A stretch of 64,000 bases of DNA, taken from contig NC_087078.1 in the NCBI RefSeq assembly GCF_026151205.1, positions 19,947,606-20,011,605 on the forward strand. The letters run 5' to 3'. Under the pieces are notes generated by a model. It had not been told where the DNA came from. It made no database searches and worked only from the letters and a program-made list of their open reading frames with translations. The position numbers and the translations under genes are program-made. The stretch comes from Bolinopsis microptera (taxonomy: Eukaryota > Ctenophora > Tentaculata > Lobata > Bolinopsidae). This document shows, piece after piece, positions 13,741 through 51,784 of the stretch; position 1 is the first letter of the stretch; the number at the start of each line of letters is the position of its first letter.

Positions 13741-16168
13741 CTTGCCGTCAAATGCGAGGTAGGGAGTGTAGGTAGTCTCGGCTATTCTCCCCTTGTACTT
13801 CTTGATCTCGTCGTGAGTGTAAAAGTCGTTTATCTCGAACAGCTCAATATCTTCTTCTGTAACTCCTGCACGCAGTCACGCAATGTCACTATTTATTGAA
13901 ATGGTTTTTACACATGATGGATATGAAACTTCCGCCTAATTTTAAGGAATTTAATTTCTACAAAATAGTTAATTTAAAACTTAAATACGGAGAGGGGAGG
14001 TTATATTTGTTTTACTTAATATTTAAACGATCCCTAAGAATAAGATAAAATCCCGCTATATGCACCAAGCTAACTTTACTAACCGACTTCTTTGAGGCAG
14101 TTTTTAGCATTGAAACAGTGAGGGCATCTTGTCTTGGAGAGAACAAAGTATTTCTTTCCCTTTGATCTTGCAGTTCCCTCGTCCACAAAGTCTATAGCTG
14201 CTTGTTTTATCTGTTGCAGGTAACTAGAAAAAGTGTACAATTATTAGAAATCACCAAATGAGTCATGATTACTGATTAGCTGTTGACTAACTGGAGACTA
14301 ACTAATTAACTAATTAATAAGTTAACTTATTAGTTGTTGAATATTAATTGGAGACTGACTAATTAATTAGTTAACTGGAGAGAGTACTTACAGGTAGTAT
14401 CTTTAGTTAACTGGAGAGTGTACTTACAGGTAGTATCCTTAGTTAACTGGAGAGAGTACTTACAGGTAGTATCCTTAGTTAACTGGAGAGAGTACTTACA
14501 GGTAGTATCCTTAGTTAACTGGAGAGAGTACTTACAGGTAGTATCCTTAGTTAACTGGAGAGAGTACTTACAGGTAGTATCCTTAGTTAACTGGAGAGAG
14601 TACTTACAGGTAGTATCCTTAGTTAACTGGAGAGAGTACTTACAGGAAGTATCCTTAGTTAACTGGAGAGAGTACTTACAGGTAGTATCCTTAGTTAACT
14701 GGAGAGAGTACTTACAGGTAGTATCCTTAGTTAACTGGAGAGAGTACTTACAGGTAGTATCCTTAGTTAACTGGAGAGAGTACTTACAGGAAGTATCCTT
14801 AGTTAACTGGAGAGAGTACTTACAGGTAGTATCCTTAGTTAACTGGAGAGAGTACTTACAGGAAGTATCCTTAGTTAACTGGAGAGAGTACTTACAGGTA
14901 GTATCCTTAGTTAACTGGAGAGAGTACTTACAGGTAGTATCCTTAGTTAACTGGAGAGAGTACTTACAAGTAGTATCCTGGGATGGCTCCAGTTTTGTAG
15001 GCAGCCCTGACCCCCTGTCCAGTATAGTAATAGTGTCTGGCCTCAGTGTAGCCTCCTACAAACTGAGGGAGGAGGGAGCTAGGAGACGATCAAGTTATTC
15101 AAAAGCAAACAAATGGCCTGTCTTATCAATTCATGTACAACACAAGTTATTCAAAAGCTGAAACAAATGGCCTGTCTTATCAATTCATGTACAACAAAAG
15201 TTATTCAAAAGCTTCTGAAACAAATGGCCTGTCTTACCAATTGTATGTTTTCAGACCCTCTCCAATTGTTTGTTCTTTATAATTTACTAAGCAGCAAGTA
15301 TCTAAGAGATTGTTGGTTATTTGGTACCGACCTTCTTGTTTGCACAAGGCTAATCATGTTGCTGATAATACCTTCTTGTTGATGAAGATTTGAGGAACTG
15401 TTTTCATCTGGCTGTACTTGCAGTAAGCGTAGTTTATAATTTCCATCTTGTTGTCCATAGTGTCCAGTTCATCTACCTCAATATCACTCTCGTCAAATCC
15501 TGCGTATTTTAAGTGTTACATCTACCTCAATATCACTCTCGTCAAATCCTGCGTATTTTAGGTGTTACATCTACCTCAATATCACTCTCGTCAAATCCTG
15601 CGTATTTTAAGTGTTACATCTACCTCAATATCACTCTCGTCAAATCCTGCGTATTTTAGGTGTTACATCTACCTCAATATCACTCTCGTCAAATCCTGCG
15701 TATTTTAAGTGTTACATCTACCTCAATATCACTCTCGTCAAATCCTGCGTATTTTAGGTGTTACATCTACCTCAATATCACTCTCGTCAAATCCTGCGTA
15801 TTTTAGGTGTTACATCTACCTCAATATCACTCTCGTCAAATCCTGCGTATTTTAGGTGTTAATCAAATATATATGATATCTTTATAGCTCAATCGCGCCA
15901 AATCAAAACATTTGTCCATTCATCAAGTAAAGCTGAATTTTAATGAGAAGTTTAAATAGAAGTTTAATGAGATCTTATAGTTATATTTATAACATATAAC
16001 AGTGAAAGTTGAAACTAACCCATTTTCTGGATGACACTTTTGGCTCTTGTACACCATCCACAATAAGTGAGGCCGATGAGGTAAACCTTGCTGCCGGCTA
16101 TCTTATCTTCAACATGCTTGGCGGCAGCTGGGTCGAGGTTGGAGCAGTCTGCATCCCATTTCAGGTTA
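13741..16168 (-). CDS. Tandem glutaredoxin-like domain protein (partial, 5 exons)
   Basis: Minus-strand exons in order: 16168-16020, 15499-15372, 15062-14968, 14223-14084 and 13865-13741, about 212 residues, all phases compatible. Module 1: a helix-rich lead, then V-Y-L-I-G-L-T-Y-C-G-W-C (active-site C-G-W-C), a K-T-V-P-Q-I-F-I cis-Pro loop, then F-V-G-G-Y, as in glutaredoxins. Module 2: Y-F-V-L-S-K-T-R-C-P-H-C, then E-E-D-I-E-L-F, and T-Y-T-P-Y-L-A-F-D-G-K at the cis-Pro position. Glutaredoxins reduce disulfides using glutathione; a C-x-x-C pair allows the dithiol mechanism. Upstream exons are missing, probably in or beyond the N gap, and the 3' end is unresolved. Three introns carry arrays built on exon edges (14369-14990, 15470-15860, 16312-16400). 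Confidence 0.8.
14369..14990 (-). repeat. 36-bp minisatellite repeating a 5' splice donor, ~17 copies
   Basis: On the minus strand each unit contains GGATACTACCTGTAAGTACT: about 10-11 coding bases from the end of glutaredoxin exon 15062-14968 plus the donor GTAAGT. The authentic copy is at the array's 5' edge, with T instead of C before TGTAAGT. Units also contain a CTCTCTCCAG stretch resembling an acceptor. The 36-base length makes a spurious 247-codon frame on the plus strand. Confidence 0.95.
15470..15860 (-). repeat. 50-bp minisatellite repeating a 3' splice acceptor, ~8 copies
   Basis: Minus-strand units carry AAAATACGCAG followed by the first 30 or so coding bases of glutaredoxin exon 15499-15372 (encoding F-D-E-S-D-I-E-V-D). 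Each copy keeps the acceptor CAG and exon start. Only the last copy (the one nearest 15372) continues into the full exon. Confidence 0.95.
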
Positions 16169-16311
16169 CTGCGGGTGTTACTGTTATTTATTGTTATTAG
16201 GGCCGGGTTCCCTGTCCCTCAGAGATTACGTAAGGTCCAGTTCACCATAATACTACTGATAACCAGCATTAGTGGTAATATTGCATAAAGTTACGACTAT
16301 ATAATGAATTG

Positions 16312-16400
16312 ATCCAGTTATGAGTTACTTACTCTAAAGTTATGAGTTACTTACTCTAAAGATATGAGTTACTTACTCTAAAGTTATGAGTTACTTACTC
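16312..16400 (-). repeat. 22-bp array with consensus donor, cut by the assembly gap
   Basis: Four copies of a 22-bp unit that reads AGAGTAAGTAACTC on the minus strand, i.e. each holds a GTAAGTA donor. The array runs straight into the N gap, so its length and the exon it belongs to are not visible. Confidence 0.85.
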
Positions 16401-16500
16401 NNNNNNNNNNNNNNNNNNNNNNNNNNNNNNNNNNNNNNNNNNNNNNNNNNNNNNNNNNNNNNNNNNNNNNNNNNNNNNNNNNNNNNNNNNNNNNNNNNNN
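16401..16500. other. Assembly gap (100 N)
   Basis: One hundred N, the usual placeholder for a gap of unknown size. It directly abuts the 22-bp array. Confidence 1.
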
Positions 16501-17172
16501 GTCACGAATAATATGATTTGATTTATTTGATATTTAAATATTGCATTTAAATATTCAAATATTATTCAGAAGATATACCATATGAAATTTAATAATAAAA
16601 CAAATATTTAATAAAACAAATATTTATTTTTACGGCACAATCAAACAATATCAATAATAAATAAATCAGGGGAGGTTTGAAGAGGTTTCAAGTGCCGAAG
16701 GCCACTGCTTATCTTTAGGATTTGAGAGTGACCTGTGCTTGAAACCCCCTCAACCATCCACTTTAAGATGGGCGCCATCCTGCTGAACATTGGTTACATA
16801 TTTTCCCAACAACTAGCCCCTCTCATCAACTGATGGGCGCAAATAAAGCTACCATACTTTTAAAATAAGACGATATTGTGAATAGAGGCGCCAAAAATCA
16901 ATTGTAAGATTCGTCCTTTCTGTGGCAGGGTTTCACACATCTATCACGCATCTATAATACTTCTTAAATGTCACCTTACTTCCGGACGAATGATAACATG
17001 ATTTATGGTAGCATGTCTATATCTATCATATTATCTGAGTATGTACCATGTATTAGATAAGCTAGCATGTACTTATATAATCTAATATGTACATTATACT
17101 ATGAATTAGATAAGCTATTATTTACATTGTACACCTATTAGATAAGCTCTGACTTATCTCCTCTCTCCTCAG
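16501..17172. other. Between gap and VAC14 exons, nothing coding recognised
   Basis: AT-rich. A short inverted pair around 16667-16756 (GAGGTTTCAAG / CTTGAAACCCCCTC) may be a small MITE. Earlier VAC14 exons are not seen here. Confidence 0.4.
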
Positions 17173-20100
17173 GTAGAGAGTACACCTCGCCCTCCCAGAT
17201 CTCTGTCACCACCAAGATAGCAGTGTTACAATGGGTCCGGACCCTCCACTCCCACGTCCCCAACAAGATCAACTCTCAACACCAGGACATATTTCCGGCT
17301 GTTATCCGGACTGTTTCAGATCCTTGTGATGGTGTTGTGGTGCTGTCCATACAGCTCCTCGCTGCAATGTTAGTAGTATTAATAGGTACTAACTAAGGGA
17401 TCATTCAAATTATGTGAGTTCTGTTTCTGGCCATTTCCTCTTCGTGGGCCACTTTACGCATCTAATCTATTGTGTAAATACTAAATACTAGCCATTCCCC
17501 TATAATGCAGGCCCATGTTAGTTGTAACAATAGTTAGTTGTGAGCCTGCTAGTGATGTACCAATAGTACTCTGTTGTTAACTGGAAAGACGATTGATTTA
17601 CATGACAAACAATGGGATTCAGTTCAAGTGTTGTAATGTGGACTATTGTTTCGTTTTTCCCTTAGAATTATAACTGTCTTTGTTAATTAGCTCGGGATAT
17701 TAACAACGTAACATAAGCTTGATATTGTGAGCTCATCATCATTAAACCAACCCTCAACAATACAGGTGTATGCAAAATAGTGATCAAGACAAGACCAACT
17801 TTGAGAACTTTCTACGAAGCCTGATAGCAAAGTTCAAGGACGATGAGAAACTGTTAGACAGACGGTGCTCCTTTATAATTCAGACTCTCTGTACCCATGT
17901 GGATAGTGAAAAGGTAAATGGAGACAATATTTTGTGTCAATTAGGCCGTATTGTAAGAACGAAAATGAAGCACAGCATTTAACAACAACAGTAATAAAGA
18001 TTCTCTTGTACTCTAAATTAATTTTATGAGACAGTTTTCTCACATATTTACCAATTTTGTCAGCATGAATACGAAGTTGTTACTTTGAAACGTCGTTTAT
18101 CCTAACAGTGCAGTATCATTTGTCGCAAGAAATCAGAATAATCAGAAACTATTTGGAACTCCCAGAAACTGTCTAAATTAATCCTCCTATTCTCCAAATT
18201 GATCCTCCTATTCCCATACTAATACTCCTATTCCCGTACTAATCTGACTTGTAATCCAGGTGTTCTGTACGCTAGCTCGACTCCTGGTGGAGGAGACTGA
18301 CATCGTGTTCACAGCTCTCTTAGTCCAGTACCTGAACTGGATCCTACTCACCTCCCCCAACCTCGCTCCACTCAGGGATACCCTTAAATCTCAGCGCAAC
18401 AACCCCAAACTCGGGTAGGTACAGTCTACAGCGCAACAACCCCAAACTCGGGTAGGTACAGTCTACAGCGCAACAACCCCAAACTCGGGTAGGTACAGTC
18501 TACAGAGAACATCACTAAGTCACGTACCAGGTTGGGTATTGTTAGGAACTTGTATGGGAGGTTAGTCATGCTTGGGGAGGTTAGTCATGCTTGGGGAGGT
18601 TAGTCTTGCTTGGGGAGGTAGAAGGGAAGGCGAGCCATATGAGTAGGAGATTGGCACGTAAGTGAGAATCGGAGGCGGGAAAATCACAATTCACATAGCT
18701 GTATTGAATCATACGCTCCTCTATCAGCTGTGTATTCATTTTGATTCCCAATCCTAATATTACATGAATGTGGAGTGTGGAATAAATACTTGATATGTAG
18801 AATGTAGATATATCTGCAATGAATTCTGCATCTGAAATTTAACGAGTTTCGTTGTAGAGATCCCATTTCAACGAATGACCAGTCTGCTCGTCTCAAAGAT
18901 GGACAAACTCCGGCTCCAAAACCTGGAAATATGTTCAGCAAATCTCCTCCGGGAAAAGGAAAATCTAACTCGAACTCTAACTCCTACTCTAACTCCAACT
19001 CTAGCTTGAACTCCAACTCTAACTCTAAAAGTGGTGGGATACTGCAGAAAGATAATGGAGCTGGAGAGCTGGAGAGCAGATCTCCCCTGGAGATTGTAGC
19101 TCGCCCAATCGAGGGATCTAGCGAAGATATGGAGTAAGATGGTTTTTTAGTGTGGCGTTAAACGTGCGAGGGCTGTTAGTGTTGTTCGAAATGTAGTGCA
19201 GCTCAAATAGTTAGCCCAGTGAAAAAGATTTTTTATTGACGTGTCCTCAAGTGGATAAAGTGATGTTTTATATTTGTCGGACTTTCGTTGCGGGGTGGTG
19301 TCTAGACGTATTTATAGTAGTCAAAAACTGTGCTGTACTAATTTGTAAGTCTGGGAAATCAGGTTAATCATAAAATTAATAACAAGTTCTGCACAAAACT
19401 ATGACACATAACTTAGAATTCTGCACTTGTTTTTTGATAACATACCATTACCACATAACATACCATTACCACATAACAAGATTATGAAACACTGGTGTCT
19501 CGCACATGACGTGCACTCCGTAGTAGTGTCTCGCATATTACTCCGTAGTTCTGAATACTGGCGGAGAAGTGAACCGTATTTGTCCTGACACGTGACAGCG
19601 ACTAACCAATCAGTTTCCAGCATTGACCAACCAAATTCAGAAATCAGAATCGCTGTCACGTATATATACGTTATATCTTTATATAAAACAAATATATAAT
19701 AGTTGGATCTCCAGATATATGCCTTGGAACCACTGCAAACCACCGAATTGGAGATATTTTTTGTGTTTAAGGTGATATCTCAAATTTGGCACATAGAAAC
19801 TCGCTTAAACTTACACAGATTATCCGTCCTATAACCACCATATTTTATAGAAAGTGTCAAGAAAATCGTACGGTAGGATCCGACATAAACTATTGTCCGA
19901 ATAACCTATTTTCTGAGTCGGACAGATTTCGCTGTCGGACAGATGTCGCCCAATCAGTTAACCTCGCCAGTCGCCACATATATCCAAATCGTTAACGGAA
20001 GTATTTATGTTCCTGAGAAAATGTCTGATAATTCCGTATAAACGACTGCAAGAGAAAATGCTCTTTTCAATTAAAGGAAGTATTTATCCACATTTGCATT

Positions 20101-22913
20101 AACTCCATTACTCTCTCAGTAAGAAGGGGTCTACAGACGGAAGAGCAGTTTTCAGCACCCTTTACACAACTTGGTGCCACGACCCAGTCTCAACAATCGC
20201 TCTGTGTATGATAGCTCATTCTTATCAGCATGCAAGTGACGTCATACACGCGCTGGGAGAATATGAGGTTAGTTCTTATCAGCATGCAAGTGACGTCATA
20301 GTGACGTCATACACGCGCTGGGGGAATATGAGGTTAGTTATTATCAGCATGCAAGTGACGTCATAGTGACGTCATACACGCGCTGGGAGAATATGAGGTT
20401 AGTTCTTATCAGCATGCAAGTGACGTCATACACGCGCTGGGAGAATATGAGGTTAGTTCTTATCAGCATGCAAGTGACGTCATAGTGACGTCATACACGC
20501 GCTGGGAGAATACGAGGTTAGTTCTTATCAGCATGCAAGTGACGTCATACACGCGCTGGGAGAATATGAGGTTAGTTCTTATCAGCATGCAAGTGACGTC
20601 ATACATGCGCTGGGAGAATATGAGGTTAGTTCTTATCAGCATGCAAGTGACGTCATACATGCGCTGGGAGAATACGAGGTTAGTTCTTATCAGCATGCAA
20701 GTGACGTCATACATGCGCTGGGAGAATATGAGGTTAGTTCTTATCAGCATGCAAGTGACGTCATAGTGACGTCATACACGCGCTGGGAGAATACGAGGTT
20801 AGTTCTTATCAGCATGCAAGTGACGTCATACATGCGCTGGGAGAATATGAGGTTAGTTTGGAGACGAGGAATCCTCCACCGATATTGTTTTTCTCCAAAA
20901 ACTCCTAATTTTCCGGACTCCAGTTTTATATCCCCATAATTTAGTATGGAAGGGTTCTAAAATGTGCACTGTCTTTTCTCAGATGACAGAGATGACCTTG
21001 TCCGGACTTGACAAACTCGTTCAACTGTTGGAAAGTCCGGTATTTTCTGCCCTTCGACTGGAACTCGTTCAACCGGACACCAACCCTGAACTCTTCCGTA
21101 GTCTGGCAGGTGAGAGATATTTCGGGGTAGAATATATTTTAAAATCAAATAAGAATGTTTTATCCATTATTCTAAATCATAATTTTTCTACACAGACATT
21201 TAAAGATATAAAATTATATCTTTTGTTCAGGTATTCTTATGCTACTGCCCCAATCCGAGGCCTTCACCCTGCTTCGTAATCGATTGGAATGTGTGGGTGT
21301 GGTCAGGGCTGCTGAGAGAACGAGTCAAGCAAGCAGGTGTGTTCCATCATCAGACAAGTAATCAATTAGCTGGTTGGTAGACTGATCGGTTGATTGGTTC
21401 TGTGACAGTCATGTCTAAACTCTAATCTAATTAGGCGGTATTATTATTGTTATCGAATTTAACACAAGTATTTAACAATAAACATTCTAAAGATCTGATA
21501 AGTCTACAACCAAGTAGAACATATCAAATAACTTAAATGTTAAAACATAAAACTTCTTTATTAATTTATGAAATACTTGAACATAAAAATTCTATATGCA
21601 TAGTAGCTAATATAAATTTCTCCATAAAATACAGTTTGAGGCAATATATAAATAAACTATACATTGTATCCCAATAATATACAGGCTGACCCCAAACATA
21701 TTGTCCGTATTTTTGATGCGGTGAAAGTATAAATTATGGAATATATAATAGTTAGAATGCATAAAAACTAAAACTGCATGCAGTTCAAATTGCTGCTGTG
21801 TGATGGATAGTCCTTATGATATCACTGACATATAATTATATCTCCCCCTTGACCAGCAGGTTTCTGGTATGGTTTATTATTAGAATGGTCGTACATCCGG
21901 ATCCCGACATCACTGTCGTGGCACTCCGGCGGCACTCTGGCGGCACTCTTGCGGCACTCTGGCGGCATAGTGCCAACTTTCAATCATGTTCTTTCAAAAT
22001 CATAAGGATTGCAAATCACAAGTCTTTGACAAATAAAGGGTAGTGCTTTTATGACACCGTGGTTATCGTGAAAAGATAATGAAGGTATAATGATTGTCTT
22101 ATGCTTTTGAAAGAATTTGATTGAAAGTTGGCACTGTGCCGCCAGAGTGCCGCCATAGTGCCGCGACAGTGCCACGACAGTGCCGTCGGGATCCGGATGT
22201 ATGACCATTAGAATCGCATTATTACATATTGCATTGAATATTCAATTTTGTTAAATTTTAATAATGAACCATTTAACCATTAATTTCCCTGAATTTCAGA
22301 CAGCATAATGTAAAATCTCGTTCGAACCTTCGTGAACGGAGCAAATATGAATTAGTAACCTTTTAACGGCTAGAATACTCGGAATACCGCTCGATCTCAA
22401 AATATATTTATGTATTAAAAGGTTTAAGATCTGTTGAATTTTTGGTGGATCCAGAACCGAAACATTTGATCGTTCGACGACAAGACCATTTTATAATTAT
22501 TCTCGTAGAAAATCTGAGTATGACAAAAGTGGACTTCCATGAATATTTATCAGTTCATCTAATCAAATCTAATCTTAAATGATTCAAATTTTATCAAATA
22601 ATTATGGTATCAGTCACGATAAGATACCTGTATCCAGATAAGGCCATATTTGACGGGATGCATGCAATAAACTGTCTTACCATAAATATTTCCTCTCCTT
22701 TGTACTGAGGAAATCAGTTCATTAAATACCACACATCGCAATTTCATTTTAATATCATGGCCCATGGGTAATAATATATCGCATAAAATTGTCAGTGATT
22801 TGGTGGACGATAAAACGCTGAAGGATATGCTGCAGCATTTTAACATAGTACAAGCACAACACGCTATCAAAAACTTGAAGTTAAGTGAGAGTCAGAATCT
22901 GAGTCAACAGTGA
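17173..22913 (+). CDS. VAC14: VAC14, scaffold of the PIKfyve-FIG4 complex (3' portion)
   Basis: Eight exons, all phase-compatible: 17173-17368, 17766-17913, 18260-18414, 18858-19133, 20120-20267, 20983-21109, 21231-21336 and 22796-22913 (stop TGA 22911-22913), about 423 residues. VAC14 is the HEAT-repeat scaffold that holds PIKfyve and the phosphatase FIG4 to make and turn over PI(3,5)P2 on endosomes and lysosomes. Recognisable stretches: the S-D-P-C-D-G-V-V-V-L HEAT segment, then the C-terminal FIG4-binding domain with L-Y-T-T-W-C-H-D-P-V, L-D-K-L-V-Q-L-L-E-S-P-V-F, L-M-L-L-P-Q-S-E-A-F and a final L-Q-H-F-N-I-V-Q-A-Q-H. Exon 18858-19133 is an oddity: it inserts a disordered Ser/Asn-rich segment (hexamer repeats at about 18960-19030) into the conserved domain. 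Two introns begin with donor-repeating arrays. N-terminal exons lie outside or in the gap. Confidence 0.9.
18394..18504 (+). repeat. 37-bp array repeating a VAC14 5' splice donor, 3 copies
   Basis: The unit contains CGCAACAACCCCAAACTCGG (the exon end) followed by GTAGGTACAGTCT. The authentic exon ends at 18414; two further exon-end-plus-donor copies follow. Confidence 0.95.
19590..19661. repeat. Short inverted-repeat element, copy 1
   Basis: ACGTGACAGCG at 19590 pairs with CGCTGTCACGT ending 19661. The interior (AACCAATCAGTTTCCAGCAT) recurs in inverted orientation at about 52249-52290, so this is a small dispersed family. It lies in a VAC14 intron. Confidence 0.6.
19759..19916. repeat. Dispersed repeat, inverted partner at 29939-30104
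   Basis: Contains GATATCTCAAATTTGGCACA and AAGAAAATCGTACGGTAGGA. The reverse complement with mismatches is found about 10 kb downstream in a VPS37 intron. Identity is unknown; probably a transposon fragment. Confidence 0.65.
20213..20857 (+). repeat. 54/65-bp array repeating a VAC14 exon end and donor, 11 copies
   Basis: The unit is the last 48 coding bases of exon 20120-20267 (encoding S-Y-Q-H-A-S-D-V-I-H-A-L-G-E-Y-E) plus GTTAGT. Four copies carry an extra 11 bp that doubles the TGACGTCA word. The authentic exon is the first copy. The 54-base unit has no stop in the exon's frame. Confidence 0.95.
21886..22207. mobile_element. 322-bp TIR element with subterminal GGCGGCACT repeats
   Basis: Ends TGGTCGTACATCCGGATCCC and the reverse complement, flanked by the direct repeat TTAGAA (21880-21885 and 22208-22213). 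Several copies of a TGGCGGCACT-like 10-mer sit inside each end in inverted orientation, as transposase-binding subterminal repeats often do. It lies in the last VAC14 intron. Confidence 0.8.
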
Positions 22914-24087
22914 AGACCAACCGTGGAATCCTACGACGATTGTATTGGACGACTTAAAAGCCAAAGCTTCTTTATCTGACAAAGTGGTGAACGTGGTAAA
23001 AAGTGGGGGATTTTCACAAGAAACCCACATGACACAAAGTTTATTTGTAATGGTTTAAATAAATTCTATGCTTAAAAGCTTTTTTAGATTTTCTCAGCAG
23101 CATTCAGAGGATTCTCAGTTTATTTGTGTTCTATGTGGCCGGGATTGTTTTTTTTGAGTAACATAACTTATTTGTGTGGTTAGTTAATATTCCCAGAAAT
23201 ATTGGATTTTATTTCTGTAACGCCCTGTTGTTGCCAGAAATCCTCAAACAAAACTGGTAACGATATTTAAGAGAGCGTTCATAAATATTAATAATTATTA
23301 GAAGAAAAAAATGAGACCATTTTGATGTGGTTGGTAGATGAAAATGGAACTTTAGTAGAATTTGTAAATGCTCTCATATATTACGGATGTGACTGTTTTT
23401 GGGTTTGTTACTCGGGCTTTTGTTGATGATTGGCAGATATAACTTATGGCGTTACAAATCAGATGTTTAAATTTGTCTAGCGTGTTTTTATTAATTGATT
23501 ATCATGGTGAATTATAAATTATGGATATGAATCGATAAAATTGGCGGAGATAAAATTAATACTTGTTTTCTTGGCAATAACGAGGATTATTTTCTAAAGG
23601 AATCTACCTTGCTCTTAAATTACAATACTCTTTTTAGAAATTTGCTTCTTTTTTAGGTTTTGAATTACGTTTCTATCTCTATGTGCATCAACCTGAAAGA
23701 CTATCCTGTTTCTGTTTACCATGTCTTGACAAATAAATCAAAGTTTATTTAAGACCTGAATGATAATTTTAGTCCATGACGAATGAGAAATCATAATATT
23801 AATGATAATAGTGATAATAATTTACCGTGTTTTATGTATCTAATTTGAGTGTGTTGTAACGCACGTGTACATTGATAATATTGTTTTTGATGAGCAGGTC
23901 TCTTAAATCATCTCGTGTCTTACTTAACCTAACTTCTAAACTACTGCCAGTGCCAATATAATGCCATCTTATAGGCTGAAAGTATTAACCCCGTCTCTAT
24001 AATCAGTTACCACAAATACACCTTAAAATCTACAACATTTCTAACTCCAAGATATATTTCTAAACCCTCGCCCTCTAGCCTAGCGCA
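22914..24087. other. VAC14-VPS37 intergenic region
   Basis: About 1.2 kb of AT-rich DNA holding the 3' end of VAC14 and the presumed promoter of VPS37. No motif could be assigned firmly. Confidence 0.5.
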
Positions 24088-27000
24088 ATGTCGGGGCCAT
24101 ACGGTTACGGAGGATACGGGGGTTACAACGCTCCCGGCCCCGGGGGGTACGGGTACCCCCGACCTGGGTACCCTCCCGGACAAGCCCAGGCTCGCCCAGC
24201 AGGCTATCCGCCCGGTCAGCAGCCCCCACCAGCCGGCCCTCCTCAGGGGTACGGACCTCCTAGACAACAATACCCACCTGGGCAGCAGACCGGTTACCAA
24301 GGTTACCAGCAACAACCTGGATACGGCATGCCAGGATACCGACCTCCTGCAGCACAGCCTCAGGTATTTAATCTTTATATGATAGCGTATGTACGTGTTT
24401 TTATTGGATATATAGTCTTAAAGTGTTTAGCTATGGAAGGTGCATTATCCCATGATTGGGAGATGGAGGGTGTCGCCCTCTGTCTAGGTAATTTGTAGTA
24501 TTCGTGGTATCGAATACTTGTTTCCATTACCATGGTCATGAGATGGAAATACCACGAAACTGGGATGGATATACCACGAAACTGTTCTCGTGATATGCAT
24601 TATTTGTCTGGGTAATTTAATCGATCCAATCATTTGCGTCAGGTTTTAATGCAACAATGTTGTTCATGAGCTGAAAGCAATAAATCTTCGTGTGACGTTA
24701 AACAGTCCTCTTTGTGACGTTAAAAAATCAAATCATTTTGTCAATCTAAACTTCTAAAGAGAGAATATTCCAGATCAAAGCTATCTCCATTTCTAGTGGT
24801 TAACAAAACAGCAACTACCCGGTAATATTCGTGCCTTCTAATAACAATCCCTCAATTCTGCCAGGGATACACGCCAGTTCCGGGCACTACAGCCGGCTAC
24901 ACACCACCCATCTCTCAACCGCCCCCCATGGCAACCTCCGGCCACGGTCCCATGGTGACAGCAGGCCACGTTCCTACAGTCAGTTCAGCCAACAGGCCCC
25001 CGGTGAGTGAACCACGCCCCACCATGTTTACAACAGTTTGTGAGGCCCCCGGTGAGTGAACCACGCCCCACCATGTTTACAACGGTTTGTGAGGCCCCCG
25101 GTGAGTGAACCACGCCCCACCATGTTTACAACGGTTTGTGAGGCCCCCGGTGAGTGAACCACGCCCCACCATGTTTACAACGGTTTGTGAGGCCCCCGGT
25201 GAGTGAACCACGCCCCACCATGTTTACAACGGTTTGTGAGGCCCCCGGTGAGTGAACCACGCCCCACCATGTTTACAACGGTTTGTGAGGCCCCCGGTGA
25301 GTGAACCACGCCCCACCATGTTTACAACGGTTTGTGAGGCGTGCCCCCGGTGAGTGAACCACGCCCCACCATGTCCCGGTGAGTGAACCACGCCCCACCA
25401 TGTTTACAACAGTTTGTGAGGCCCCCGGTGAGTGAACCACGCCCCACCATGTTTACAACGGTTTGTGAGGCCCCCGGTGAGTGAACCACGCCCCACCATG
25501 TTTACAACGGTTTGTGAGGCCCCCGGTGAGTGAACCACGCCCCACCATGTTTACAACGGTTTGTGAGGCCCCCGGTGAGTGAACCACGCCCCACCATGTT
25601 TACAACGGTTTGTGAGGCCCCCGGTGAGTGAACCACGCCCCACCATGTTTACAACGGTTTGTGAGGCCCCCGGTGAGTGAACCACGCCCCACCATGTTTA
25701 CAACGGTTTGTGAGGCCCCCGGTGAGTGAACCACGCCCCACCATGTTTACAACGGTTTGTGAGGCCCCCGGTGAGTGAACCACGCCCCACCATGTTTACA
25801 ACGGTTTGTGAGGCCCCCGGTGAGTGAACCACGCCCCACCATGTTAACAACGGTTTGTGAGGCCCCCGGTGAGTGAACCACGCCCCACCATGTTTACAAC
25901 GGTTTGTGAGGCCCCCGGTGAGTGAACCACGCCCCACCATGTTTACAACGGTTTGTGAGGCCCCCGGTGAGTGAACCACGCCCCACCATGTTTACAACGG
26001 TTTGTGAGGCCCCCGGTGAGTGAACCACGCCCCACCATGTTTACAACGGTTTGTGAGGCCCCCGGTGAGTGAACCACGCCCCACCATGTTTACAACGGTT
26101 TGTGAGGCCCCCGGTGAGTGAACCACGCCCCACCATGTTTACAACGGTTTGTGAGGCCCCCGGTGAGTGAACCACGCCCCACCATGTTTACAACGGTTTG
26201 TGAGGCCCCCGGTGAGTGAACCACGCCCCACCATGTTTACAACGGTTTGTGAGGCGTGCCCCCGGTGAGTGAACCACGCCCCACCATGTTTACAACGGTT
26301 TGTGAGGCCCCGGTGAGTGAACCACGCCCCACCATGTTTACAACGGTTTGTGAGGCGTGCCCCCGGTGAGTGAACCACGCCCCACCATGTTTACAACGGT
26401 TTGTGAGGCGTGCCCCCGGTGAGTGAACCACGCCCCACCATGTTTACAACGGTTTGTGAGGCGTGCCCCCGGTGAGTGAACCACGCCCCACCATGTTTAC
26501 AACGGTTTGTGAGGCCCCCGGTGAGTGAACCACGCCCCACCATGTTTACAACGGTTTGTGAGGCGTGCCCCCGGTGAGTGAACCACGCCCCACCATGTTT
26601 ACAACGGTTTGTGAGGCGTGCCCCCGGTGAGTAAGTGAACCACGCCCCACCATGTTTATAACGGTTTGTGAGGCGTGAACCACGCCCCACCATGTTTACA
26701 ACGGTTTGTGAGGCGTGCCCCCGGTGAGTGAACCACGCCCCACCATGTTTATAACGGTTTGTGAGGCGTGCCCCCGGTGAGTGAACCACGCCCCACCATG
26801 TTTACAACGGTTTGTGAGGCGTGCCCCCGGTGAGTGAACCACGCCCCACCATGTTTACAACGGTTTGTGAGGCGTGCCCCCGGTGAGTGAACCACGCCCC
26901 ACCATGTTTACAACGGTTTGTGAGGCGTGAACCCTAATTATACTGAAAAAGGGCAGCTGTTGCGCCCGAACTTATTCTAAAATAAATGATATTTCTGCTG

Positions 27001-30920: not shown

Positions 30921-30951
<31 letters not shown>

Positions 30952-45900: not shown

Positions 45901-48900
45901 TTCAAATACTTATTTACTGGCGACATGACTCTTGATTATTAATTAGGATCAATTGGAGAGGTATTGTATTAATTACTACATTGAACCGTTATCATTGAAA
46001 GATCATTGTGTCAGTGCCTCAGATAAAATACCAGAGTCAATAGCCATTAGTCTAAAAGACCTGCCTTCAGTTTTAACTCCTTCAACACTAGAGTCACGAA
46101 GTCTTGGATATAATAATGGTTGAAATACAGCAATATGATTATAATAATATGAAACATCCGCTATAACAGAATTCAAAAGAAATCCTCATAATCAAATGAT
46201 ATGTCATTAATTCAGAAACTCCTCATCATATGTTTGACGCATACTTTTCCTTTGTCGATTGAAGTGTGGACGGGCGGACTTGCCTGTTGTAATTTTCATT
46301 TCCCAAAGGGGAGGTTTCTTGTTTTTTTTTCAATCTTCAAATTAATATCTTCGATACTAATAAGTTTGCATTTCACTGAAACCATATCTTTGTTTTTTAA
46401 ATAAAAAACCCTTTCGTTGTGAAGAACTGTTGTGCAGTACGAAATTCTGCTTCTTTAATGCCTTAGTTTGCCAGTAATGATTTGAAAAGACTGAGAGTCG
46501 TCTAATTTTACAAGGATCCGGTGGGGTTCATGGGTAAACTACCTTTGTACGAAATTGGGTCTTTGGCAGGATCATTCCTTGAAGACTTCACATAATATCT
46601 TAAACTTTGCATCTTTCAAAAGGCAGCAGTAGACTTCGTAGTTAGTTAGAATTTCCCTTTCTTCAAGGCATTCTCTCCAGCACGGATCTATTTAGGAGGC
46701 GAGGATTGCTTGCGGAGATATGACGGGTTTATTCTTTTATTAGAAATTAACAGAAGGCTCATACAAGTCCACTGTGGCCAGACTTATAGGTCCCACTGTT
46801 CCTGAAAGTTCCGGTCACTTACGGTGTGTGACTCTCGTCACTCTCTGTCGCCTCCTTAATTGGACGGTGTGTCAAAATATCACCACATTATTTCCTTTAT
46901 AAATTCAGCTACACCACAAATAGTTTAAATTTAATCATACCTTGCCAGGAGACAGTATATAACGCAGTACGTGTCTCCTGGAAAATTTTCACTTTGGTAT
47001 AATCAAGTGGCTTCAATAGGTGATATAATGACCATCCATTGTATAACAATCACCTACCGTACCTGCACGACAATGAACTATAATTCCGTCGACTTCCTTG
47101 ATTAAAGAAGAGGGAGATCGGTATTTTAATGCTAGTATTAGCTGCGGGGTTTAACTTTAATGAGTTCATTCATAATCCAATTTGAAACTCCCCCAGATTG
47201 ATTGTCAAAATTTTGGTCCGTGTCGAAGTATCTCGCAGCACAATGGATCCGGGTTTTTAAGACAAAATAGCCAACTTTTTCATAATTCATCCTAACTATT
47301 TTACAATGCTTGTCGTAAGTTCGAATGCGGAAAATTAAATTTCTATAGTACAATGTCTAGACGTAACTTGGGCGTACAATATTTCGTCGACAACAGAACT
47401 GCCACAGTCCTGCGACAGTCCTGCGACAGTCCTGCGATCTTGCGATATTCCTGCCACAGTCCTGCGACAGTCCTGCGACAGTCCTGCCACAGTCCTGCCA
47501 CAGTCCTGCCACAGTCCTGCGACAGTCCTGCCACAGTCCTGCCACAGTCCTGCCACAGTCCTGCCACAGTCCTGCCACAGTACTGCGACAGTACTGCCAC
47601 AGTACTGCGATCTTGCGATATTCCTGCCACAGTCCTGCGACAGTACTGCCACAGTCCTGCGATATTCCTGCGATATTCCTGCCACAGTCCTGCGACAGTC
47701 CTGCCACAGTCCTGCCACAGTCCTGCCACAGTCCTGCGACAGTCCTGCGACAGTCCTGCCACAGTCCTGCGACAGTCCTGCGACAGTCCTGCCACAGTCC
47801 TGCCACAGTCCTGCCACAGTCCTGCGACAGTCCTGCGACAGTCCTGCCACAGTCCTGCCACAGTCCTGCCACAGTACTGCGACAGTACTGCCACAGTACT
47901 GCGATCTTGCGATATTCCTGCCACAGTCCTGCGACAGTACTGCCACAGTCCTGCGATATTCCTGCGATATTCCTGTCACAGTACTGCGGCTGAACTGCGG
48001 TATTGCTGTTATGTTATACTCGTTTTTAAAATTTAATGTGTTATATTCCTGTGTGCTAAAAATGCAATGTGACTGTTATTACATAGTACATTCACAATCA
48101 TAAACTGTTCGATTATTATGTTTGAGGGGCTGACAAACTGCTGTGAGGTTTCGAGATCATCACTTTTAATTCATTTAATTAATTAAATAAATTATATTCT
48201 AGGCTATAATATGAATATAAAATTGTTGACCACTTAATTAAGGGCTGCTTGTGGTACAATAATACAACGTCTACGGTTTTGGATTATCCACATTACTAAT
48301 ATTATTATCGTGTTGTATAAAAATAACTTTCATGTTCTCTCCACGGGCTCTTGCCTTGACCCTATTATTTTTCGCCGCATTTTTTACCGACGATATTTAT
48401 TTGCAAAGAAAATATCTTTTACAATATACAATATACAAATTTACTGTATACAATTTATTGTAATGAGTTAATGCTACCTAGTGATGAATAAAAATGGAGC
48501 TCCTCCAAGACCGGGTCCTAGGCAGCTTCAGCGTAAAGAAACAGTTTGGGACAATCTTCAAAAAAAGACTTCCTTCATGAGTGACATTCGCGAGTTTTCA
48601 GCGGATACTAGTGCCCATGGAATAAAATTTATATTCGAAAGCCCTCGGAAACTCCTTAAAGTCTTCTTTCTCCTTCTGTGGATTGCCTTCTCGATCTACG
48701 CTTGCTACATCATCTGTACCAAGATACTCATGTTCGTTAATAAACCGACCGGTACAAAGTTCGAGGTCGTTGTGGATGATAACGAAAGTGAAAAGAAAGG
48801 CATCAAATTTCCCACCATTACTGTTTGCTCCATGAATAAAGTCAGAAAATCATACCTTGAAAATGAAGAAAACAGACTGTACAAGGATTACTTCAACATT

Positions 48901-51784
48901 ATCGACCAATACAACGCAAAACAGGCCAAAGAACTGGCCAACAGGTTGAATGATCCGAATGACGAGATGTTCGCTATCAGGAACGAAACTTACGAAAGTT
49001 TGTTCCAAAATGGTGGCCCTTCACCAAACAGACTGTTAAAATGTATGCAAAAAAACCAGCACTGTGGTCAAATGGAATCGTTTATGGAGAAGGATGAATA
49101 TGGTGTTCCAATTGATGGTGTGGCACATTACGTTACCATGCCGACTTCAAGCTCTGGGAAATGCTGGAGAGTTAACCCTCAAGGCACGTTAAGAGGCAAG
49201 ATGGGCGATTATGGTGCTCTGACCCTTATGTTTTGGGCTGACATCCAAGACTACTCCAAACGGTCATCTGATAGTGTAACCCATGGATTTAACGTAGTAT
49301 TTCATGACCACGAAACATACGGTTCAACCATTTTTTCTGGCTTCTTGATGAGTCCAGGGACTTATTACAAAGTTGATCTGGGACTCAGGGTCACACTGAG
49401 AAATAAACATAAGGCCGAAAGCTGCAACGCGTCTCTTGTAAATACCACATACGGTATATACAATGAGGGAGCTTGTCTTCAAGAATGTAAAGATAGGACA
49501 CTCCACGAAAGGTGCGGCTGTGTCCAAGTCTTACCTCCTAACAACGAGGGTAAGTACAAGGCTTGTTCTTTTGAAAAGTGGGCCAGTTGTGGGCTGTCTA
49601 CCTACCTTGAGTGGTATGGAAACTACACCAATACAGAAGATAAAAAGAAAGGCGGTGAAGAAAATGAATGCGTGTGTGACACTGCTTGCGAGGAGAAGAA
49701 CTACGAAGCCTCCATCAGCAGTGCCACCATTTCAGACAACTGGGTCGATGGTGTTCATAAAAACGTTGGTGGATTTTTGCAAGGGTTTTCACAACCTGAC
49801 TATAACGTGACCTATTCCACCCCTGACGACATCTTCAAGAATCTTATGGTTGTTGAGATCCTTTTCACCAGCATGCAAAAAACTCAGGTCAATGAAGTCA
49901 TTACTTACGATCTTGGCAACCTTTTCGGTGACGTAGGAGGGGTACTTGGACTGTTCCTGGGGGCCAGCGTGTTTACTATTATTGAATTTATCTTGTTCTG
50001 TGTGATAAGCTGTGCCAAATACTGCTGCAAGGCAACTGATTTAGGATGGCTAGAACTTATGCCTTGAGGAAGTTCATGCCTGCACCTAACTGATTTAGGA
50101 TGGCTAGAACTTATGCCTTGAGGAAGTTCATGCCTGCACCTAACTGATTTAGGATGGCTAGAACTTATGCCTTGAGCAAGTTCATGCCTGCACCTAACTG
50201 ATTTAGGATGGCTAGAACTTATACCTTGAGCAAGTTCTTGCCTGCACCTGACTGATTTAGGATGGCTAGAACTTATGCCTTGAGGAAGTTCTTGCCTGCA
50301 CCTAACTGATTTAGGATGGCTAGAACTTATGCCTTGAGGAAGTTCATGCCTGCACCTAACTGATTTAGGATGGCTAGAACTTATGCCTTGAGCAAGTTCT
50401 TGCCTGCACCTGACTGATTTAGGATGGCTAGAACTTATGCCTTGAGCAAGTTCATGCCTGCACCTAACTGATTTAGGATGGCTAGAACTTATACCTTGAG
50501 CAAGTTCATGCCTGCACCTAACTGATTTAGGATGGCTAGAACTTATGCCTTGAGGAAGTTCATGTCTGCACCTAACTGATTTAGGATGGCTAGAACTTAT
50601 GCCTTGAGCAAGTTCATGCCTGCAACTGATTTAGGATGGCTAGAACTTATGCCTTGAGCAAGTTCATGCCTGCAACTGATTTAGGATGGCTAGAACTTAT
50701 GCCTTGAGCAAGTTCATGCCTGAACCTACTTAATCTTGTCTCCAAATTGACGATTACAACTTTGTTTGATTAGAATGTGCAATGTAAGTGTGCGCTTTGA
50801 TGGATAACGAAGGTTTTGTTGAATTTTCCTGATTTCGCTTTGCTTTGACTTTAAGGCCACCCAAAGGTCAAATATGTTTGATATCATCACGTTAAATTAG
50901 ATAGCTTTCATACTAAACCATAGTACAAGTATCAAGTTTTTGCAAAAACATGTCCACTGCACTGGAGATGAAACTCCCATTAAAAGTTGAGCTACCTTAT
51001 CATCTATACTTCTTCCGGCTCTGGTGTTTCCATTATCTTCTTAGGAAATAGACAGACCGGGACAATATACAGCCGGAATTGCGTTGTGCCGGAAAATGTT
51101 TGGTCGTTCTTGTGTGTTTTTGTAGAATTTACGTCTTGATATCTATTACATTAGCATTATAGAAGAATTAACATTTTGTGATGACTATAGATTAGTAGCT
51201 AATAAAATTAAGTTGAATTTTAAATCGGTTAGATATGTCTATTTGATTGATTTTGGCTGATTTTCATCTTGTTTGATTGAATTTTGTTTGGTTTGATTGG
51301 TTTTATCTGGTTCAATCCATGTCGCTGACACCACAATTTTTAATGTTAGCTAAACTGTAATTTAATTTCTAACAGTTCGATCTTAATATTTTATCCTAGT
51401 GTTTTCCTCGTTCAAAACTTAACCTTGCTTTCCAATTATAAGATTTAAATATTTCATACACGAAATAAAGCTCATAAGGCATAAGCTTATTATATTAAGC
51501 TTATCCTAGCACCAATAATGTTTCCAGCTCAGCTGTGTCCTCTCCATACTGATGATACAAACTACTACCGTTTCAATTTATATACCTTATTAACTTAAAT
51601 TGAATAATTAAAAATCGATTAATTAATTACAAATCAATATTTTCAGTACTCAGAGTTGGAGTCAAAGCGAAACGAGCTGAGCGATCTTCAACAACAGCAA
51701 CAAGCTCTGGCTGACCACTACGCTCCCCATAACATTCTGGCCAGACTCAAGATTGCAGCCTCGGAGGTTGAAGATGAAACTGAG
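24088..51784 (+). CDS. VPS37-type ESCRT-I subunit, Pro/Gly/Tyr-rich N terminus
   Basis: Exons 24088-24363, 24865-25002, 28187-28302, 41364-41441, 43098-43206 and 51647-51784 join in phase to 285 residues; a further 12-codon exon at 57244-57279 is possible and the last exon is probably outside the window. Residues 1 to about 165 are low-complexity (G-Y-P-P-G-Q, P-G-Y-x-P). From S-F-P-E-L-Y-G-L (about 169) the sequence follows the VPS37 Mod(r) domain: E-E-L-E-K-L-M-D-N-D-A-A-V-L-E-Y-F, then E-R-N-E-T-L-A-L-E-N-L-T-L-K-P-Q-L-E, then I-L-A-R-L-K-I-A-A-S-E-V-E-D-E-T-E. VPS37 pairs with TSG101 and VPS28 in ESCRT-I, sorting ubiquitinated cargo into multivesicular bodies. The core is closest to VPS37A by eye, yet no UEV-like N-terminal domain is present. 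A GPCR and a DEG/ENaC gene lie in its introns. Confidence 0.85.
24990..26930 (+). repeat. 49-53-bp array repeating the VPS37 exon-2 donor, ~39 copies
   Basis: The unit contains AGGCCCCCGGTGAGTGAACC: the last 9 coding bases of exon 24865-25002, the donor GTGAGT, then intron sequence ending TTACAACGGTTTGTG. Later copies carry an extra GCGT. The authentic exon is the first copy. Long minus-strand frames here are repeat artefacts. Confidence 0.97.
26931..28186. other. Rest of VPS37 intron 2
   Basis: No exon or repeat array supported. Two short GCGGAGTTTTG repeats occur at about 27999-28036. Confidence 0.45.
28303..31576. other. VPS37 intron 3, left part: dispersed repeats
   Basis: Holds a repeat fragment at about 29010-29130 with relatives near 40601-40650 and 41640-41760. 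Also the 29939-30104 partner of the VAC14-intron repeat, a diverged tandem duplication of about 110 bp at 30345-30545, a run of about 30 C at 30921-30951, and a solo right end of the ACCTTAC TIR family at 31010-31084. Confidence 0.55.
31577..32818 (-). CDS. Orphan class A (rhodopsin-like) GPCR
   Basis: Single coding exon, 413 residues, start ATG at 32818 with a CAG acceptor just upstream (about 32829), so a 5' UTR intron is likely. Seven hydrophobic segments: TM1 about 42-64 with L-N-S-L-V, TM2 about 78-104 with S-L-C-D (D87), TM3 about 122-146, TM4 about 163-186, TM5 about 240-273, TM6 about 286-312, TM7 about 326-350. The usual D-R-Y at the end of TM3 is I-R-T and N-P-x-x-Y in TM7 is N-P-F-I-L, so both activation motifs are altered. 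The C-tail is basic and Ser-rich. It sits antisense inside VPS37 intron 3. Ligand unknown; lineage-specific orphan receptors of this kind are common in cnidarians (family knowledge). Confidence 0.85.
   Translation of the reverse strand: MSMNDECNIQNYTQIRQSILYVDIGLYWSAAKLYALWEKKWFIITTSGLCFAMCFFILILNSLVLRHYIKKYKQLIPLLYTSMSLCDIGNAISAFLTGALLLMIMCNYRSHSDPYPTMTFMVKLTYILFSLTSRVSIFFNTILVVIRTINVVFPTYTIKRGRVIVVLVVGQVLWLSVAAIDIVGLQQILPYFAKMKSETNEIPSTQYDVLVDSLVVNPLTGFFFIYYIFDKMCNIHNFNIIGVYVLVKGVPFVLPSAISIACMVIQTYYLIIRSRVGRHSAVSRRITITVLYLTTVFVACNIPDFVLNLVCLGVISISTDNLPTYMCATFVSSVMLPFVNSLFNPFILLIRGSTLKKSVQSYFCGPDSFRFNRGKASGLGDFSREKFDLWKRRSDGNRMIRRNDNMSLSRMDK
33004..33589. repeat. 17-bp minisatellite of CACGTG E-boxes, ~34 copies
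   Basis: Unit GTCGAACTAAGTCACGT; each junction makes GTCACGTGTC. A few copies have GTCGGACTAAG or GAACTGAG. It lies about 190 bp beyond the start codon of the minus-strand GPCR, in its 5' flank or 5' intron. Confidence 0.97.
33590..36420. other. VPS37 intron 3, middle part
   Basis: AT-rich. Three imperfect copies of a unit of about 32 bp with CAGCACTGGCCGGTTACTTA at about 34558-34670. No coding exon supported. Confidence 0.45.
36424..37465. repeat. Diverged duplication ending in 21-bp X-box-like repeats
   Basis: Segments at 36424-36470 and 37330-37385 share TCACGCATGTG and TCTGGTAAGAG. Each is followed, at about 36655-36722 and 37391-37465, by tandem units ACTAGTTACCATAGTAACACT. The core GTTACCATAGTAAC is a near-palindrome matching the RFX X-box form. 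Confidence 0.75.
37900..38246. repeat. 45-bp minisatellite, ~8 copies
   Basis: Unit begins GTGGCAGGGCACCCAGATGA and ends CTCACAACCTTTAG, with minor variants (AGGTCACAACC, one-base deletion). It lies in VPS37 intron 3 and shows no link to an exon edge. Confidence 0.95.
39340..40437. repeat. 31-bp minisatellite, ~35 copies
   Basis: Unit with AGTTAACTGTAGTTATGGTG and GTATATAAG; a few variants (TTAATAGTAG, GTGTTTATAA). It lies in VPS37 intron 3. Confidence 0.97.
40438..41363. other. VPS37 intron 3, right end
   Basis: AT-rich. A fragment at about 40601-40650 resembles repeats at about 29080 and 41700. Ends with the acceptor TTTATTTCAG of exon 41364. Confidence 0.5.
41442..43097. other. VPS37 intron 4
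   Basis: Includes three copies of a unit of about 49 bp with AACATCAGCCCTCCTATTAG at about 41905-42025 and a dispersed repeat fragment at about 41640-41760. No further exon seen. Confidence 0.45.
43207..47399. other. VPS37 intron 5, left part
   Basis: Short tandem repeats only: a unit of about 54-80 bp twice at 44000-44165 (GTGTTATCAATAA words), a 21-bp unit three times at 44525-44596 (ACCACTGGTACGCATGGTGC), and CCAGTTA about nine times at 45558-45620. A segment at about 44805-44890 recurs at about 45640-45725 (CGGCTCAAATATGCTAGGAT). No coding exon supported. Confidence 0.5.
47400..47990. repeat. 11-bp minisatellite with higher-order duplication
   Basis: Unit CAGTCCTGC(C/G)A repeated about 50 times. 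A block with CGATCTTGCGATATTCCTGC occurs near 47435, 47607 and 47902, showing larger-scale duplication. Because 11 is not a multiple of three, all frames open up on both strands; none of these is a real gene. Confidence 0.95.
48484..50067 (+). CDS. DEG/ENaC family sodium channel (HyNaC/ASIC-like)
   Basis: Intronless, 527 residues. The ATG at 48484 is the first Met after an in-frame stop at 48469. DEG/ENaC channels are trimeric Na+-selective channels gated by peptides, protons or force. Seen: the gating H-G motif at 45-46 (S-A-H-G-I-K-F), TM1 about 57-80, F-P-T-I-T-V-C-S-M-N at 109-118, a Cys-rich extracellular loop (C-L-Q-E-C ... C-G-C-V ... C-V-C-D-T-A-C), and TM2 with the selectivity filter G-A-S at 493-495 in L-G-L-F-L-G-A-S. 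The C-terminal tail is short. Length and layout match the family. It lies sense-oriented in VPS37 intron 5 and its stop-codon end is the first copy of a 54-bp array. Peptide-gated HyNaC relatives in cnidarians are the likely comparison; gating is not deducible. Confidence 0.92.
   Translation: MNKNGAPPRPGPRQLQRKETVWDNLQKKTSFMSDIREFSADTSAHGIKFIFESPRKLLKVFFLLLWIAFSIYACYIICTKILMFVNKPTGTKFEVVVDDNESEKKGIKFPTITVCSMNKVRKSYLENEENRLYKDYFNIIDQYNAKQAKELANRLNDPNDEMFAIRNETYESLFQNGGPSPNRLLKCMQKNQHCGQMESFMEKDEYGVPIDGVAHYVTMPTSSSGKCWRVNPQGTLRGKMGDYGALTLMFWADIQDYSKRSSDSVTHGFNVVFHDHETYGSTIFSGFLMSPGTYYKVDLGLRVTLRNKHKAESCNASLVNTTYGIYNEGACLQECKDRTLHERCGCVQVLPPNNEGKYKACSFEKWASCGLSTYLEWYGNYTNTEDKKKGGEENECVCDTACEEKNYEASISSATISDNWVDGVHKNVGGFLQGFSQPDYNVTYSTPDDIFKNLMVVEILFTSMQKTQVNEVITYDLGNLFGDVGGVLGLFLGASVFTIIEFILFCVISCAKYCCKATDLGWLELMP
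50036..50722 (+). repeat. 54-bp array repeating the channel's stop-codon end, 13 copies
   Basis: The first copy is the coding end itself (encoding D-L-G-W-L-E-L-M-P, stop) plus about 21 bases of 3' flank. Twelve more follow with TTAGGATGGCTAGAACTTAT and the same TGA. The last copies are shortened to about 48-50 bp. Confidence 0.97.
50723..51646. other. VPS37 intron 5, right part; 3' flank of the channel gene
   Basis: AT-rich. Contains the channel's presumed polyadenylation region and ends in the acceptor TATTTTCAG. Confidence 0.45.

Follow-up and report, generated by a model that had tools for sequence, protein, structure and literature searches.

Minisatellites spanning predicted exon edges in the ctenophore Bolinopsis microptera: recurrent arrays with the architecture of the human CBS repeat

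Introduction

Tandem duplications involving splice-site sequences have been described in several systems. The human CBS gene carries a 31-bp variable-number tandem repeat (VNTR), c.1444_1467+7(16_21), in which each unit contains, by this notation, 24 coding and seven intron bases and the copy number varies between people (PMC2630376). In potato RdRp a tandem duplication across an intron–exon boundary created a new intron (PMC4974935), and the same article cites the 24-bp AGGT exon arrays SPOG_01682 and SOCG_00815 of fission yeast. In Drosophila near intron pairs, novel intron positions have been explained by the duplication of proto-splice sites or by sliding (PMC2891723). Here, we analyse a window of 64 kb of contiguous DNA from the ctenophore Bolinopsis microptera, in which six minisatellites in four unrelated genes repeat units that each cross the predicted edge of a coding segment, be it a splice donor, a splice acceptor or a stop codon.

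The CBS VNTR is a close parallel, since its unit likewise joins an exon end to an intron start and repeats the donor in each copy. However, CBS is a single gene with 16–21 copies, whereas the ctenophore arrays occupy at least nine Pfam-supported loci, reach ~121 copies and also involve an acceptor and stop codons. The potato case shares the copying of splice signals by a short tandem duplication across a splice boundary, but there one duplication produced a new intron, while the present arrays sit at one intron edge and the other edge lies outside them. The fission-yeast arrays are also short tandem units with splice-site words within a gene, yet they have an exonic seed and an intron spanning several copies; the Drosophila pairs differ in having no arrays and in a duplication located inside the coding sequence. 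In unit length, purity and growth by tandem duplication, the arrays resemble ordinary minisatellites of introns and 3' untranslated regions, from which they differ only in the coding bases of the outer copy. No survey of exon-edge minisatellites was found among titles and abstract openings in an open-access library, which leaves the absence of such a survey unproven, and passages of PMC12221973 contain nothing on tandem repeats.

The exon-edge arrays of B. microptera are real and recurrent, have the same architecture as the CBS VNTR and are possibly in mild excess over random placement.

Materials and methods

The window (C7:19947606-20011605) belongs to contig C7 (20,109,789 bases) of assembly G000, which comprises 264.65 Mb in 232 contigs, and ends 98 kb from the end of C7. 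In a PDB search with an iGluR ligand-binding domain of this genome, ML032222a (1.8e-65) and 4zdm (9.6e-54), from the ctenophores Mnemiopsis and Pleurobrachia, scored far better than all remaining entries (1.3e-28 and weaker). The sample of 312 kb consisted of 262 kb of C7 (the 64-kb window and 198 kb of flanks) and 50 kb from the interior of C1. Arrays were called with Tandem Repeats Finder (TRF). Gene models were obtained with our own gene finder, a generalised hidden Markov model that was blind to the edges proposed in an earlier note on the window; its starting set was the long open frames of the sample, the ASC channel gene included, and it was trained after each array had been collapsed to a single copy, so that repeats were unable to mimic exons. 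Genes were considered supported when they had Pfam profile matches, and exon edges are predicted throughout.

Edge crossing was compared with three null placements of the arrays (uniform, within 1.5 kb and GC-matched; 400 draws, the uniform null also with 1000), after removal of arrays touching N. The main set contained arrays with a period of 30–80 bp and at least 2.8 copies and the wider set those with a period of 18–100 bp and at least 1.8 copies; further cut-offs were tried. A test restricted to Pfam-supported genes used 15 gene models, with placement confined to the gene of each array. Genes without retained Pfam support, retroelement genes among them, were left out of it, as were the low-complexity exons of model 57 below window coordinate 155000; this model is a fusion of two unrelated pieces, and its C1 piece, scanned only later, has VWD, C8 and TIL domains above cut-off. 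A stricter recount also dropped gene 32 (Mod_r, 28.2 bits for a cut-off of 30.1) and the array of an SH3-domain gene, which is possibly wholly coding.

A blind set was formed by 15 of 16 listed arrays chosen solely for holding one of two words, one of the seven controls, on C11, being left out. Gene-finder exons lying inside two of its arrays (L041 and L042; scores 12.1 and 11.5) were taken for repeat sequence and left out of the count.

Results and discussion

Anatomy of the window arrays

All six arrays described in the earlier note were found by TRF in their places (Table 1), the acceptor array having a period of 49 rather than 50 bp. Its claim that they cross coding boundaries is likewise borne out, since the gene finder recovered all six edges and Pfam supports the genes of five of the six arrays.

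Table 1. Predicted genes and edge-crossing arrays. Positions are window coordinates unless a contig is named; a slash marks the predicted splice junction.
Feature	Position	Strand	Unit and copies	Composition and support
Glutaredoxin-like gene	13741..16211	-		Gene finder; two arrays; exons 13741-13865, 14084-14223, 14968-15062, 15372-15499, 16020-16211
Donor array, glutaredoxin-like gene	14367..14979	-	36 bp x 17.0 (TRF)	11 coding + 25 intron bases; donor TT/GTAAGT
Acceptor array, glutaredoxin-like gene	15470..15861	-	49 bp x 8.0 (TRF)	~30 coding + 19 intron bases; acceptor TACGCAG/GATTTG
Vac14-like gene	17142..21361	+		Gene finder; two arrays; exons between 18414 and 20120 vary among model versions
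First donor array, Vac14-like gene	18392..18505	+	37 bp x 3.1 (TRF)	23 coding + 14 intron bases; donor CGG/GTAGGT at 18414 (gene finder)
Second donor array, Vac14-like gene	20219..20858	+	54 bp x 11.0 (TRF)	~48 coding + 6 intron bases; donor GAG/GTTAGT at 20267 (gene finder)
Proline/glycine-rich gene	24088-28302	+		Gene finder
Donor array, proline/glycine-rich gene	24994..26926	+	49 bp, ~39 copies (TRF)	9 coding + 40 intron bases; donor CCG/GTGAGT at 25002
ASC/ENaC-family channel gene, intronless	48484..50067	+		Open reading frame, gene finder; PF00858 2.1e-65
Stop-codon array, ASC channel gene	50034..50728	+	54 bp x 13 (TRF)	34 coding bases with TGA stop + 20 bases 3' of gene
Donor array, CDK16-like gene	-24733 to -19772		41 bp x 121	Last 30 exon bases + 11 intron bases
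Stop-codon array, rhodopsin-type G-protein-coupled receptor (GPCR)	C1		31 bp, 3.1 copies of stop	
Probable acceptor array	C1		30 bp x 17	Gene with F5/8 C + LDL-receptor A domains
Donor array, blind set	C3		46 bp	Exon score 9.6; no Pfam match
Stop-codon array, GPCR, blind set	C1		53 bp x 6.1	7tm_1 4.6e-06, below cut-off
Donor array, pecanex, blind set	C5		26 bp x 4	PF05041 9.7e-08, above cut-off

In the glutaredoxin-like gene, the glutaredoxin match (PF00462, 6.6e-16; residues 66–128) spans the acceptor junction, which the gene finder placed at 15499(-), the copies of the acceptor array being read by eye. The donor was placed at 14392(-), within a retained copy, which is equivalent to 14968 in the exon-attached copy. 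Donor sites are present in 17 of 17 copies, the outermost of which reads TTG where the 16 inner ones read CTG. The Vac14 match (PF11916, 7.4e-63) spans the 20267 donor junction, and a PDB search for Vac14 gave no match. The first array of this gene has donor sites in three of three copies, with an in-frame stop directly past the donor. The second contains 11 donor sites in ~11 copies as well as 65-bp units made of the 54-bp unit plus a repeated AGTGACGTCAT, and stops short of the partner acceptor predicted at 20983. The proline/glycine-rich gene, with 38 donor sites in ~39 copies, had no match in the Pfam search, so that its donor has the support of the gene finder alone. The stop codon of the ASC channel, which the gene finder placed at 50067(+), is inside the PF00858-matched gene.

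The TRF match within the six arrays is 87–100%; given this and the near-complete retention of donors, they are young or homogenised. The coding share of the unit varies from 9/49 to ~48/54 bases, and hence the edge is crossed at no fixed position and nothing is anchored at the edge itself. A unit of exon plus intron across one predicted splice junction is common to five window arrays and to the CDK16-like and pecanex donors described below. A blastn-short comparison of 121 array units from the sample returned six similar pairs, none of which includes a window edge array. This agrees with the independence stated in the earlier note and speaks against a dispersed family derived from a single mobile unit for the window edge arrays.

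Recurrence elsewhere in the genome

The gene finder marks more crossings in the 198 kb of flanks and the 50 kb of C1, several of which belong to retroelement genes or to models of doubtful quality. The best cases are the rhodopsin-type GPCR on C1 (Table 1) and a CDK16-like gene, the exon of which ends in ...VKDQLAKIWQ; the exon join is ungapped against CDK16 (3mtl), with one gap 12 residues upstream. Donor sites occur in 120 of the 121 copies and the predicted acceptor lies 2 kb beyond the array. On C1, a B-lectin-like stretch behind the probable acceptor array scores 26.2, under the Pfam cut-off of 32.4. By our own reading, three of the 15 arrays of the blind set cross an exon edge, which is not significant by itself (P 0.21–0.44). 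The recurrence suggested in the earlier note is supported by these cases, namely the CDK16-like and pecanex donors and the two GPCR stop codons. No start codon is found among the listed edge crossings in the 312 kb, where gene models are of mixed quality.

The array of the SH3-domain gene (window coordinates 156571-158797, right flank on C7; 33 bp x 67) is counted as crossing by the gene finder, but the open frame (KSPPPIPSEPG)n was read at both ends, and the array may be a coding minisatellite rather than an intron. At locus L030 (~1179-1423, reverse strand) the GT of a donor with a weak prediction opens a 25-bp x 10 array, the unit of which starts with GTGAGT and is nearly all intron.

Neutral duplication sieved by selection as a probable explanation

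We favour, with a probability of about 0.6, the explanation that the first unit of each minisatellite came by chance to straddle a coding-segment end, and that neutral tandem duplication was sieved by selection. A stretch of 30–60 bp would be duplicated head to tail in a genome rich in tandem repeats, by slippage or by a repair process that uses microhomologies only a few bases long; this is suggested by the unit ends, at which short and varied matches were read by eye (e.g. CAG at 18392 and AGGC at 24994). The array would then grow and homogenise. Growth inside an exon would damage the protein and be removed; where the stretch crosses a donor, an acceptor or a stop codon, the exon-attached copy would keep the protein unchanged while the first edge is used, and the remaining copies would fall in intron or 3' DNA, leaving the array free to grow. 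Both this neutrality and the use of the outermost site in splicing are inferred.

When a segment containing an exon edge is duplicated, all further copies come to lie beyond the first edge. The observation of the earlier note that the intact exon is always outermost therefore follows from tandem duplication itself and, like growth into the intron, needs no extra process. That donors, an acceptor and stop codons are affected alike in unrelated genes is to be expected if what they share is the border of purifying selection rather than a splice signal. Arrays lying wholly within predicted exons are in short supply, with one of 44 against 7.2 expected in the main set and 12 of 114 against 20.3 in the wider one. 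Crossing arrays have longer periods and spans than the others, and their copy number is not significantly higher (P 0.12).

Tandem arrays with a period of at least 7 bp make up 20.7% of the C7 part of the sample (262 kb, window included) and 19.2% of the 50 kb from the interior of C1; a tandem-repeat share of 13% by TRF is given for Hormiphora (PMC8527503). A subtelomere effect was dropped because the interior of C1 has a nearly equal share, despite the proximity of the window to the end of C7.

Intron gain and spare signals as possible alternatives

The arrays could also reflect the gain or the sliding of introns through tandem duplication (the Rogers model), a route that the earlier note linked to seeding at AGGT-type junctions. 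There are precedents, as a new intron arose in potato from a duplication that crossed an intron–exon boundary and introns span the AGGT arrays of fission yeast (PMC4974935), and the Drosophila near intron pairs are of the same kind. However, the AGGT model needs both splice sites to come from copies, and the partner site predicted for each of the five window splice junctions, like that of the CDK16-like donor, is outside the array. Furthermore, the unit ends are not at AGGT, an acceptor and stop codons are caught as well and, as described below, the donor word is not special. This origin is thus very improbable for the present arrays.

Selection might instead maintain the copies, either as spare donor, acceptor or stop signals, as the earlier note proposed for splice sites, or as in-frame copies that vary the protein. 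Nearly all inner donors are indeed intact. In the CDK16-like array the outermost donor (GTTCGT, 5.9) scores below 71 of the 119 others (GTTAGT, 7.7), and the 54-bp unit of Vac14 can be read through in frame. However, the number of variable donor columns is one of nine in the glutaredoxin-like array, none of nine in Vac14, five of nine in the proline/glycine-rich gene and one of nine in the CDK16-like array, where this single column holds 50 of the 67 differences. Donor columns show no consistent difference from the rest of the unit, inner donors being neither consistently decayed nor specially conserved. Moreover, the use of a later copy would usually disrupt the reading frame or run into a stop: units of 37, 41 and 49 bp shift the frame, those of 65 bp break the Vac14 frame, and the glutaredoxin-like and first Vac14 copies have a stop directly after the donor. 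Selection for spare signals is accordingly the least credible of the explanations considered here.

Edge crossing compared with random placement

In the window, an edge is crossed by six of the 12 arrays of the main set, where uniform placement would give 1.2, placement within 1.5 kb 1.8 and GC-matched placement 1.5. Since the window was picked for its arrays, counts outside it weigh more. Over the whole 312 kb, 15 of 44 arrays cross, compared with 4.7 under uniform placement (none of 1000 draws was as high), 6.0 within 1.5 kb and 5.0 with GC matching. Outside the window, with all models, the count is 9/32 against 3.5, 4.1 and 3.6, respectively, a level reached in three, two and two of 400 draws. 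When exons are limited to those scoring at least 8, 11 of 44 cross against 2.8, 3.1 and 3.0, and outside the window 6 of 32 against 2.2, 2.1 and 2.2 (five, four and ten of 400 draws as high). The wider set gives 22/114 against 9.5, 12.3 and 9.4. A GC effect was discarded, the GC-matched null being about equal to the uniform one.

In Pfam-supported genes, 10 of 33 arrays cross an edge against 4.2 expected from placement in the same gene (P 0.003). Outside the window these genes give 5/21 against 2.3 (P 0.06), or 2.9 with wholly exonic placements barred (P 0.14); limited to periods of 30–80 bp, they give 5/11 against 1.5 (P 0.011) or 1.9 (P 0.026). The stricter recount leaves 9/32 against 4.1 (P 0.012) or 5.3 with the bar (P 0.059), and outside the window 4/10 against 1.3 (P 0.030) or 1.7 (P 0.068) for periods of 30–80 bp; without this limit on the period it leaves 4/20 against 2.1 (P 0.15) or 2.7 (P 0.28). 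A greater overlap than under random placement, which the earlier note proposed to check genome-wide, is thus seen for predicted edges over the whole sample but is not significant in the stricter recount outside the window without this limit on the period.

These counts bear on whether chance and biased gene models could account for the crossings. With ~20% of the DNA in arrays, some edges must be crossed (12.8% of random placements in supported genes do so; 4.2/33), and the gene finder may favour edges in repeat units. The selection of the window for its arrays, the several crossings outside it in doubtful models or retroelement genes and the stricter recount of 4/20 point the same way. On the other hand, the null was built from the same gene models, exons scoring at least 8 retain the excess, and so does the stricter recount when the window is included. 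We therefore regard chance with biased models as an improbable explanation of the whole pattern.

Three results weigh against neutral duplication sieved by selection as a complete account. With wholly exonic placements barred, the Pfam-supported count of ten still exceeds its expectation of 5.4 (P 0.026); a plain neutral sieve predicts that ~12.8% of surviving arrays should cross an edge (4.7/36.8), whereas 15/43 do; and neither GC nor nearby gene density explains the excess. A two- to three-fold excess at exon edges is thus possible but not settled, being weaker outside the window and in the blind set, and any residual excess left by the sieve would be unexplained. It might mean that minisatellites preferentially arise or find refuge at the edges of coding segments, two to three times as often as under neutral placement and whether the edge is a donor, an acceptor or a stop codon, exon ends thus continually shedding tandem copies of themselves into the adjacent DNA. 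This we consider a tentative and rather doubtful reading, which, together with the hot-spot explanation discussed next, became slightly less likely with the stricter recount.

The donor word and possible mutational hot spots

Alternatively, edges may be mutational hot spots at which a process linked to transcription or splicing (R-loops, U1-bound nascent RNA, nucleosome edges or AGGT words) starts duplications more often. The crossing excess described above, both over the sample and outside the window and in Pfam-supported genes, is what such a process would produce, and the donor word itself at first appears array-prone. Pairs of CAGGTRAGT at 31–59 bp number 895 genome-wide against 17 for the reversed word, an apparent 50-fold enrichment, single words numbering 4370 and 2576, respectively, and CAGGTAAGT alone gives 499 against 2. 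Among the matches listed, many of the donor-word pairs come from few long arrays, with nine arrays up to C3:5.83 Mb, and those listed for CAGGTAAGT include 13 arrays up to C10:1.54 Mb. However, the matches listed for the scrambled word GAGTRCAGT within the first 3 Mb of C1 include five clusters spaced at 33–48 bp, two of which are possibly copies of one repeat. The scrambled word thus forms arrays at least as readily, judged by clusters among the matches listed, and the view that the donor word is specially array-prone was dropped. A scan of 97 units with a position weight matrix for donors (a generic matrix) gave a weak signal, 12 units scoring at least 8 against 6.6 +- 2.5 in random segments, with a highest value of 13 in 100 draws.

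The flanks of nine donor-word arrays also speak against a hot spot. Just one array clearly continues an exon, one starts at a weak donor (exon score 2.4) and one starts 53 bases downstream of a predicted donor; for the remaining six the gene finder predicts no exon that ends at the array on the strand concerned, if weak models inside two of them (scores <=4.0) are disregarded. Stop codons, moreover, are caught as well as splice sites, and at the wider cut-off the excess outside the window falls short of significance when Pfam-supported genes are considered. A mutational hot spot at exon edges is therefore unlikely.

Implications

A real excess would mean that minisatellites arise or persist at exon ends and there provide a steady supply of spare splice sites beside working ones, on which alternative splicing, the sliding of introns and the extension of exons could draw. 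The arrays would then also be a natural test bed for the choice of the spliceosome among up to ~121 near-identical donors. If only neutral growth is involved, they still call for caution in gene annotation of repeat-rich genomes.

Other observations

CACGTG is the most over-represented hexamer in the 121 units of the 312 kb, being present in nine arrays against 1.3 expected (P 8e-6, uncorrected, for 1493 hexamers). A 100-base assembly gap at window positions 16401-16500 lies immediately behind a 22-bp array. Two retroelement-bearing stretches within window coordinates 78514-94163, in the right flank, encode the same long predicted proteins in opposite orientation and thus look like a large inverted duplication. 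Neighbouring laminin-G/pentaxin-like genes at ~-408 to 1128 and 5631-7684 are probably a tandem pair, and three iGluR genes (L026, L027 and L028), each a single open frame of >900 residues, look intronless.

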